Shown piece by piece: positions 11,101 to 14,100 of a DNA stretch of 49,966 bases. The notes beneath the pieces were generated by a model. It was not told where the DNA came from. It worked only from the letters and a program-made list of their open reading frames with translations, and did not search any database. Made by a program: the position numbers and the translations under genes. Position 1 is the first letter of the stretch. Every line of letters starts with the position of its first letter. The stretch is from Myxococcaceae bacterium (GTDB lineage: Bacteria > Myxococcota > Myxococcia > Myxococcales > Myxococcaceae), in contig JAEUJQ010000031.1 of assembly GCA_016793095.1 (NCBI GenBank), positions 1 to 49,966 on the forward strand, in the 5' to 3' direction.

Positions 11101-14100
11101 AGGCGGCGGGACGACCCTCTCGTATCGGCCGAACCTCAACTTCACCGGCATGGACTCGTTCACCTACACCATCAGCGACGGCAACGGCGGCCAGGCCACC
11201 GCGACGGTGAACGTGCTCGTCACGCCCGTCAACGATCCGCCCTCGGCCACCAACGACACCTTCGGCGTGGTCGAGGGCTCGTCGAACAACCGGCTCGACG
11301 TGCTGGCGAACGACTCCGTCGCGCCGGACATGAACGAGGCGCTGACCGTCACCGTGGTGAGCACGCCGACGAACGGCACCGCCACCCTCGATCTCAACGG
11401 CGCGGCGGTGCTCTACACGCCCGCCCCGGGCTTCAACGGCAACGACTCCTTCACCTACACCGTCAGCGACTCGGGCGGCCTCACCGCCAGCGCGACGGTC
11501 ACGATCATCGTCGGCCCCGCCAACGACCCACCGTCGAACACGGTGCCGGCGACGGCGACGACCGCCGAGGATCAGCCGCTCACCTTCAGCGCGGCCACCA
11601 TGAACGGCGTCTCGGTGGCCGATCCAGACGCCGCGAACCAACAGATCCAGATCACCCTGAGCGCCACCAGCGGCGCCGTGTCACTGGGCACGACGACCGG
11701 GCTCGTCTTCACCCTGGGCGACGGCACCGCCGACGCGACGGCCACCTTCCTCGCGACGCTGGCGCAGGCAAACGCAGCCCTCGACACCCTCACCTTCCAG
11801 CCGACGGCCGACTTCAACGGCATGGCCTCGCTCCGCCTCGTCACCAACGATCTCGGCAACACGGGCGTGGGCGGCGCGAAGAGCGACACCGACACCATCG
11901 TGATCACCGTGACGCCGGTGAACGATCCACCCGCCGCCGTCGCCGACACCGCGACCGTCGCAGAGGACTCGCCGGCCACCGACATCGACGTCCTGGCGAA
12001 CGACACGATCGCGCCTGACACCGGCGAGCTGCTGCGCGTCACCACCGTCACCCAGCCGATGTTCGGCACGACCCAGCTGGTGATGGGCGGCGCGCGCGTC
12101 AGCTACACGCCCAACGCCGACGCCTTCGGCACGGACTCGTTCTCGTACACGATCACCGACGGCAACGGCGGCACGGCGACGGCCACGGTGACGGTGACGG
12201 TGCTGAACCAGAACGACCCGCCCACCGCGACGCCCGACGTCTTCGCGGTGCCGCAGGACAGCGTGAACGCGCCCCTCGACGTGCTGGCGAACGACTCCTT
12301 CGCCCCCGACCCGATGGAGACGCTCACCATCGTCGTCACCTCCCCCGCCCAGCGGGGCGTCGTCACGATCGCGGCGAACGGCGCGCGGCTCACCTACACG
12401 CCGACCGCGGGCTACATCGGCCCCGACTCGTTCACGTACACCATTCGTGACTCGAACGGCGGCATCGCCGCAGCGAACGTGACGATCACCGTCGGCGCCG
12501 ACACCGATCGCGACGGGCTCTCGGACAACGATGAGCTCGTCGCAGGGACGAATCCGGCCGATCCCGACACCGACGACGATCTGCTGTCCGACGGCATCGA
12601 GGTGAAGATCGGCATGACCGACCCCCTCGACGACGACACCGACGACGACGGCCTGCTCGACGGCAACGAGGACGTCGATCGCAACGGCGTGAAGGCGATG
12701 AACGAGACCGATCCGAAGGTGGCCGACACCGACATGGACGGTCTGCCGGACGGGCTCGAGCGCGGGCTGGCCATGCCGCAGGGCCGGCACACGAGCCTCG
12801 GCACCTTCAAGGCCGACGCCGACCCGAGCACCACCACCAGCCCTCTGCGGCGCGACACCGACGCGGGCGGAGACAGCGACGGCACCGAAGACGCGAACTC
12901 GAACGGCCGCATCGACCCGGGCGAGACGAACCCGAACGATCCGTCAGACGATCGCCAGGACGCCGATCGCGACGGCCTCACCGACGCCCAGGAGCGCGCG
13001 GCCGGCACCAACCCCACCGATGGCGACAGCGACGACGACGGCGTGCTGGACGGCGACGACGGCACGGCAGACACCGACGGCGACGGGCGCATCGACGCGT
13101 TCGATCCCGACAGCGACAACGACGGCATCCTGGACGGCACCGAGGCGGGCGTGACGAACCAGACGCTCAAGCCGCTCGAGACCGATGTGTCGAAGGGCAA
13201 CTTCGTGCCCGACGCCGACCCGAGCACCACGACGAACCCGAAGCGTACCGACAGTGACGGCGACACGCTGCCTGACGGGGTCGAAGACGCGAACAGGAAC
13301 GGCCGCGACGACGAGGGCGAGACCGACGCCTCGAAGGCCGACACCGACGGCGACTTCATCGACGACGCCACGGAGAAGAGCGGAGAGAACCCCACCAACC
13401 CCGAGCTGGCCGACACCGACGGCGACGGGCTGGTGGACGGCGAGGAGGACGCCGACCGCGACGGGCGCTTCGAGACGGGTGAGACGGACCCCAACAACCC
13501 GGACACCGATGGAGGAGGCGCGAACGACGGGCTCGAGCGCTCCCGGGGCTCCAACCCGCTCGACCGCAACGACGATCTCGAGGTGCGCGGCGGCGGCGGC
13601 TGCGCGCAGGCGCCCTCGGGAGTCCTGTTCGCCGCGGCGCTGCTGCTGCTCGCGCGCCGGCGTGGGGCCGTCGCCGCGGCATTGCTGGCGGTGCTGCCCG
13701 TCAGCGCGCTGGCCCAGAACACGCTCAACACGTCCATCGACGTGCAGCGCTTCAAGCCGGGCGCGGGGAGCCAGGACTTCCTGAACCTCGACTCCGCGCG
13801 GGTCGCGCCCCACATGGTGCTCTTCGGCGGGCTCTTCGGTGGCTACGCCGAAGATCCGCTGGTGCTGGGGACGCCCGGCACGCGCGACGTGACGGCCCGC
13901 CTCGTCGACAGCCTGACCTTCTTCGATCTCTCGGCCGGCATCGCGGTGAAGGATCACTTCGAGGTCGCGCTGGCGATGCCCATGTCGGTCGCGAGCAGCC
14001 AGTCATCGGCCACGCTCGACCCCGCGCTCGCGACGGCCGTCACCGCGTTCTCGGCCGGCGATCTGCGCTTCGTGCCGAAGTACGCCTTCATGCCGCGCGA

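Follow-up and report, generated by a model that had tools for sequence, protein, structure and literature searches.

One example of the arrangement described here is already in print as a possible fusion: MXAN_5598 of M. xanthus is presented as an ORF with an internal MYXO-CTERM, encoded beside ftsA/ftsZ, whose N-terminal part is proposed to be processed (Guo, Haft and Wall 2025, PMC11980579). The same paper calls internal MYXO-CTERM ORFs rare, and its main text has no mention of a second signal peptide in MXAN_5598, nor does the word polyprotein occur there. MXAN_5598 is also listed in outer membrane vesicles (PMC4158809). The gene analysed here is like MXAN_5598 in that a large adhesin, an internal MYXO-CTERM, a barrel and OmpA occur in one ORF, although our tail scores below threshold, and it is unlike MXAN_5598 in not being located beside ftsA/ftsZ; ftsZ of this genome is at G000:C40. 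Of the 6 genomes in which ftsZ was found, 4 have a fused gene of the same kind next to it (G019, G022, G102 and G125, not G012 or G000), which fits the description of MXAN_5598 in PMC11980579.

TraA and TraB resemble our ORF in that a surface protein with a MYXO-CTERM precedes a barrel/OmpA protein with a signal peptide (PMC3325183, PMC6372800), and they are reported to act 1:1 in M. xanthus (PMC12045341). They are encoded by two genes, however, TraA has other domains, and our C-terminal half reaches 110 of the 700 bits set for TraB. In the hantavirus Gn/Gc precursor, there is an internal signal peptide at which signal peptidase separates two membrane proteins synthesised in a single chain (PMC7926653), but this is a virus in eukaryotic cells with no sortase-type tail, and the likeness is by analogy only. 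An archaeal protein with an internal tripartite tail processed by ArtA has a sorting signal in mid-protein as ours does, although the enzyme is unrelated. In the literature searched, mainly open-access papers, there was no account of the second signal, of the shared RRR, or of the recurrence of this joint, and no title indicated a bacterial polyprotein or precursor with internal signals like these. To our knowledge, bacterial cellular polyproteins matured by housekeeping proteases have rarely been described.

The joint and the two halves it connects

The window is the whole stretch of 49,966 nucleotides that was analysed, G000:C22 of an 8.8-Mb draft genome in 93 contigs (G000). The features of the ORF are as follows, with a slash marking a predicted cut.

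8156 to 15160, + strand: candidate precursor ORF, 2334 aa from GTG 8156 to the stop at 15160 (the ORF list gives a start at 8108 and 2350 aa)
8156 to 8215, + strand: predicted N-terminal signal with the lipobox-like end MIDVSRCCAAVAAAVMITA/C (..VMITA/C; Cys codon 8213 to 8215)
8267 to 13584, + strand: giant adhesin-like N half, from domain matches
residues 54 to 299 (numbering from 8108), + strand: AgmC-N-like, domain match
residues 573 to 806 (numbering from 8108), + strand: DUF11, domain match
residues 947 to 1364 (numbering from 8108), + strand: Big_9/cadherin repeats, domain match
residues about 1460 to 1823 (numbering from 8108), + strand: TSP3-like acidic repeats, end placed by eye
13589 to 13663, + strand: MYXO-CTERM-like tail, with GGGG-C (Cys 13601 to 13603), hydrophobic helix and RRR (13655 to 13663)
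13652 to 13714, + strand: predicted second signal peptide, with an ARRR n-region in common with the tail, hydrophobic core and VSALA
after 13714 (between 13714 and 13715), + strand: predicted signal peptidase I cut, ALA/Q, from the sequence and from conservation in alignments A1 and A2 and at 59 loci
13715 to 15157, + strand: TraB-like half from Gln, with barrel region, TSP3-like linker and OmpA domain
14882 to 15142, + strand: OmpA domain (PF00691), 33.1 bits against a cut-off of 27.2

The GTG at 8156 is preferred as the start, having GGAGG at 8147 to 8151, 4 nt upstream, for an SD score of 5. The residue numbers Cys-1816 and Gln-1854 count from this start; from 8108 the same residues are Cys-1832 and Gln-1870. 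By the lipobox rule, the N half is probably made as a lipoprotein. A similar lipobox-like end is found in 4 of 5 homologues from the same genus (..LVGC, ..AVGC, ..LVGC, ..LAAC), the fifth having an ambiguous start. Since the N half opens with this lipobox-like signal at 8156 to 8215, the adhesin may be lipid-anchored at both ends. The neighbor genes in the window include MlaE-, MlaF- and Mce-like genes.

The joint, DDLEVRGGGGCAQAPSGVLFAAALLLLARRRGAVAAALLAVLPVSALAQNT, is in a single frame without a stop. The original prediction had described an internal MYXO-CTERM-like tail running into a second signal in one ORF, and this is confirmed by the stop-free frame and by recurrence of the joint in relatives. 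MYXO-CTERM tails combine Gly-Cys, a transmembrane helix and an Arg cluster at the C terminus of a protein. The window has the first three as GGGGC...LLLLARRR, but 498 in-frame residues follow the RRR, and for that reason the tail is classed as MYXO-CTERM-like, internal. A signal for signal peptidase I has a basic n-region, a hydrophobic core and small residues at positions -3 and -1, and all are found in the stretch from RRR through ALLAVLPVSALA/Q. The N-terminal placement of a Sec signal peptide is seen in the separate relatives, while in the window the stretch is internal.

At the junction, the original prediction had seen no in-frame ATG, and no GTG with a ribosome-binding site. In the window, no in-frame ATG, GTG or TTG occurs from 12 codons before the R cluster to 14 codons before the cut. 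Nearer to the cut are TTG 13682 and GTG 13691; starts there would leave signals 11 and 8 residues long, lacking any basic residue.

The top-scoring NCBIfam model for the window tail is TIGR03901, at 12.0 to 14.3 bits and thus below its cut-off of 20, and the tail has rank 63 among the 68 TIGR03901 matches in its genome. With E up to 10, the model also finds matches in 7 of 14 control genomes, none above the cut-off, so the low score of the window tail is unspecific when taken alone. Among 10 homologous tails, 7 pass the cut-off of TIGR03901 or TIGR03382, 2 are below both and 1 has no match; the TIGR03901 cut-off alone is passed by 4 of the 10, and 2 of the 7 passing tails also pass other sorting-tag models. 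MrtX is found in the window's genome with 338 bits against a cut-off of 180.

By its sequence, the C half is best called TraB-like, not TraB, since NF033763 (TraB) gives 104 to 110 bits against a cut-off of 700, and its assignment as a barrel is by similarity to this TraB model only. In G000 no protein was found that passes the curated TraB cut-off. The single-sequence AlphaFold2 model of the C half has a mean pLDDT of 35.5, too low for a fold to be read from it. The contig search for related loci produced one remote match in Bacteroidia, to the TSP3/OmpA part.

Recurrence of the joint and its two-gene relatives

A search with the C-terminal 537 residues found the same frame open over 2346 to 2476 aa in 5 of the 6 other genomes of the genus, with 64 to 67% identity. 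In the sixth (G002), the frame starts within the barrel at a contig end. We aligned 17 chosen junctions as A1. All 17 rows share Gly-Cys and one Arg, and A/Q is at least 90% conserved, with identity to the window dropping to 29 to 38% outside the genus. As a profile, A1 has matches in 157 of 179 Myxococcota genomes. Among the A1 matches listed, those starting in the MYXO-CTERM part (profile positions 2 to 8) are stop-free. Follow-up of 34 of the matching genomes gave 16 matches that start at positions 2 to 9, of which 12 are stop-free; the other 4, which cross one stop, resemble the two-gene state read in a single frame.

A larger collection of 109 distinct barrel ORFs has 59 fused, 48 separate and 2 at contig edges, from loci chosen to cover both states, so the ratio of 59 to 109 should not be read as a frequency. 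The 59 fused junctions span 8 family-level groups. The finder used to count them accepted a junction only if it had a Cys, an R cluster and, ahead of the cut, a small residue, with Q preferred after it, which makes counts of these features partly circular. Of the 62 barrel ORFs with an open frame extending 200 residues or more upstream, 3 were left out of the fused set. For L025, L026, L095 and L114, the Cys picked by the script is an upstream one, and the relevant one is the GGC Cys nearer the helix. Both stretches of the joint are kept and hydrophobic across the 59 loci, the span from the R cluster to the cut is without an acidic residue in 50 of 59, and [A/V/S/T]xA/Q is found at 56 of 59, with site choice favoring Q. 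The Gln after the predicted cut at those 56 joints resembles a Q-rule reported for Bacteroidetes, subject to the same preference in site choice.

In 14 chosen pairs, dN/dS is 0.45 for the hairpin made by the two stretches, 0.28 for the stretch preceding it and 0.22 for the barrel. Judged by pS, which in these pairs is equal in hairpin and barrel, there is no extra synonymous constraint at the hairpin of the sort expected from a hidden RNA or start signal. These values fit a hairpin that would be coding and under purifying selection with a loose hydrophobic constraint.

The original prediction had taken homologues present as two genes with a stop at this position as evidence against it. Such homologues do exist in some lineages, where they bear on the origin of the fusion, but the window's close relatives are fused. 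A barrel tree (107 sequences, 322 columns, IQ-TREE quick) requires the label fused or separate to change at least 8 times, against a mean of 35 for shuffled labels; 6 of the changes are forced by starred branches. Several long branches meet in this tree, so the exact number of changes is unsure. A MYXO-CTERM-type tail ends no more than 400 nt upstream of 10 of the 48 separate barrels (7 by pattern and 3 by eye), and none was found within that distance at the remaining 38.

The two states can also be compared within one genus, in the congeners G102 and G091 (loci L105/L083). G102 has a fused frame of 3216 aa, and at the same syntenic place G091 is without about 8 kb, which is the N half; the barrel-side flanks are 93% identical over 1936 nt, and the upstream flanks 90 to 93%. 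The barrel frame of G091 can start as MAVPFPGRRRR (ATG, SD score 5) and continues to AEA/Q, and the second signal is in that genome an ordinary N-terminal signal peptide.

Two other arrangements were observed. In genus g38 (L072, L073, L074), a MYXO-CTERM gene for about 1277 aa is followed 242 to 243 nt downstream by a barrel gene. On the tree, these barrels form a clade placed within fused relatives, and the arrangement is a split one that retains both signals. In the window's own genome, L160 (G000:C73:55271-64646) is unfused and in the reverse order, with a 653-aa barrel/OmpA frame and, starting within a few nt of its end, a MYXO-CTERM adhesin frame of 2471 aa. This reverse arrangement suggests that the adhesin and barrel kinds are partners whatever the gene order.

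Candidate readings of the joint

We consider it quite likely, on comparative sequence evidence, that the ORF is the precursor of two surface partner proteins that are joined by a membrane hairpin and cut at both sides of it. Two cuts are favored because the predicted signals for both are conserved from lineage to lineage, because the halves are elsewhere separate genes with their own signals, and because G091, lacking the N half, has the second stretch as its N-terminal signal. The original prediction had offered this polyprotein and a retained two-helix anchor as its two readings; we infer the former from the comparative evidence and find the latter less favored. The repeated changes between fused and separate, the scarcity of SD-like starts at the joints, the presence of MrtX, the further joints in G000 and the fused pairs of the second type described below also speak for a two-protein precursor. 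Counting against it are the sub-threshold window tail with its low rank, the faster evolution of the hairpin than of the barrel (dN/dS 0.45 against 0.22), the small share of separate barrels with a MYXO-CTERM gene close upstream (10 of 48), the partly circular junction counts and the LRA and GRA joints of the second pair.

In the proposed sequence of events, the N-terminal signal would export the adhesin half until the MYXO-CTERM helix stops transfer, leaving the RRR in the cytosol, where the same RRR would be the n-region of a second signal that restarts export for the barrel half. The myxosortase MrtX would cut at the Cys, after its proposed lipidation (this step and its site are taken from PMC11980579), and signal peptidase I would cut after ALA. 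The adhesin would then be sorted to the surface, the barrel would reach the outer membrane, where its OmpA domain would grip peptidoglycan, and the two would be produced 1:1. As to origin, the stop codon may have been lost between a MYXO-CTERM gene and a neighboring signal-peptide gene; since the hairpin keeps the topology right, loss of a stop can yield a fusion, and the fusion could be neutral.

The alternative that survives best, though we rate it as unlikely, is a single cut, which would most likely be that of signal peptidase I after ALA, releasing the barrel half, with the adhesin keeping the hairpin or a trimmed form of it as an anchor. It would account for the window tail being sub-threshold as a MYXO-CTERM while AxA/Q fits the family pattern well, and the hantavirus glycoproteins give the precedent of two chains separated by signal peptidase (PMC7926653). 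The invariant Gly-Cys of A1 argues against it, as do the presence of MrtX in the genome and the 7 of 10 homologous tails that pass a MYXO-CTERM cut-off.

A chain left uncut, with both helices staying in place as a membrane anchor, would agree with both stretches being kept and hydrophobic, but we think it improbable. The residues of the cut sites are kept as well, similar signals serve separate genes, and a hairpin in the inner membrane would presumably hold the barrel/OmpA half back from the outer membrane.

Still less probable is that the joint gives two translation products, by an internal start, coupled reinitiation or a frameshift. Coupling has a model in canonical traA/traB, where the traA stop and the traB ATG share an overlap of 4 nt at 6 of 6 loci, as is typical of coupled genes. 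Some in-frame ATG, GTG or TTG is found in the narrow usable span at 55 of 59 joints, and one with an SD-like match of at least 4 at 1 of 59. The window has no start in that span. Over a fixed span of 57 codons, an SD-like start (match of at least 4) is found at 11 of 59 joints versus 28 of 48 separate barrel genes, and so is rarer at the joints than in 856 random windows from fused ORFs, at 28%; with no SD-like enrichment, we rejected an internal start at the joint. A programmed frameshift was also rejected, as stops at a fixed distance after RRR were not found in the other two frames, where the distances are scattered. Synonymous sites are unconstrained, as noted above, and, with no stop at the joint, a first product would have the second still attached.

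Finally, the loss of a stop codon by sequencing or assembly error, which the original prediction had named as a possible refutation and which the draft state of the genome in 93 contigs might invite, has a negligible chance of being correct and is refuted in practice: the joint is open in 5 of the 6 other same-genus assemblies, similar joints occur in genomes assembled as a single contig, among them G012, G102 and G125, and conservation across genomes disposes likewise of a frameshift or missed stop as an artefact.

A precursor cut twice would tie two sorting enzymes to one chain, which is directly testable. The hairpin would explain how an internal MYXO-CTERM is tolerated, and it would provide a mechanism for the equal supply of surface partners, for example TraA/TraB-like pairs. 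For annotation, ORFs joined by such a hairpin should carry two mature product names.

Further joints and the MXAN_2561/2562-type pair

Beyond the window, five more ORFs of G000 have the joint.

G000:C19, L162:918-7292, + strand: internal MYXO-CTERM-like tail directly then signal peptide, the C terminus of the ORF carrying another MYXO-CTERM
G000:C47, L163:1204-7647, - strand: the same joint, ending in a second MYXO-CTERM; by eye, a lipobox closes the second signal
G000:C13, L165:836-8392, + strand: internal MYXO-CTERM-like tail directly then signal peptide
G000:C34, L174:811-4992, + strand: internal MYXO-CTERM-like tail directly then signal peptide
G000:C39, L175:1805-2926, - strand: internal MYXO-CTERM-like tail directly then signal peptide

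Profile A2 was built with the window, C19 and C13, which match it by construction, and many A2 matches cover the MYXO-CTERM part only and end at a stop, being ordinary C-terminal tails. A hairpin profile run on 19 loci gave no full-length match for L163 and L180, L163 having been read by eye. The C19-type joint is also found, by eye, in G003, G004, G005 and G006.

We incline slightly to the view that MYXO-CTERM/signal-peptide hairpins are a general device of Myxococcota, by which two, perhaps three, separately sorted envelope proteins would come from one translation product. They would have arisen by repeated loss of stops between adjacent genes, and many surface systems would then be true polyproteins, processed by myxosortase together with signal peptidase, with a fixed 1:1 output.

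The same type of joint occurs in a pair unrelated to that of the window, the MXAN_2561/2562 type. In G029, the part that follows the hairpin, the C half, is a member of the MXAN_2562 barrel family, with 153 bits against a cut-off of 100, and the N half resembles the partner MXAN_2561 at 93 bits, below the cut-off of 150. The barrel family has matches in 58 of 60 genomes searched. We examined 45 loci, made up of the 30 best matches, 12 with long frames, two from G000 and G006, and G029, and among these chosen loci 7 are fused by a hairpin, 37 are separate neighbors and 1 is ambiguous. Many long frames before MXAN_2562-type barrels were left out of the fused count, as by eye they look like non-coding GC-rich frames. 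At the 37 separate loci, the MYXO-CTERM gene ends 65 to 185 nt before the barrel domain. The 7 fused loci, picked by eye, are in family groups f3, f4, f7 and f8, and their joints have AxA before the mature part in 5 of 7, with LRA and GRA in the others.
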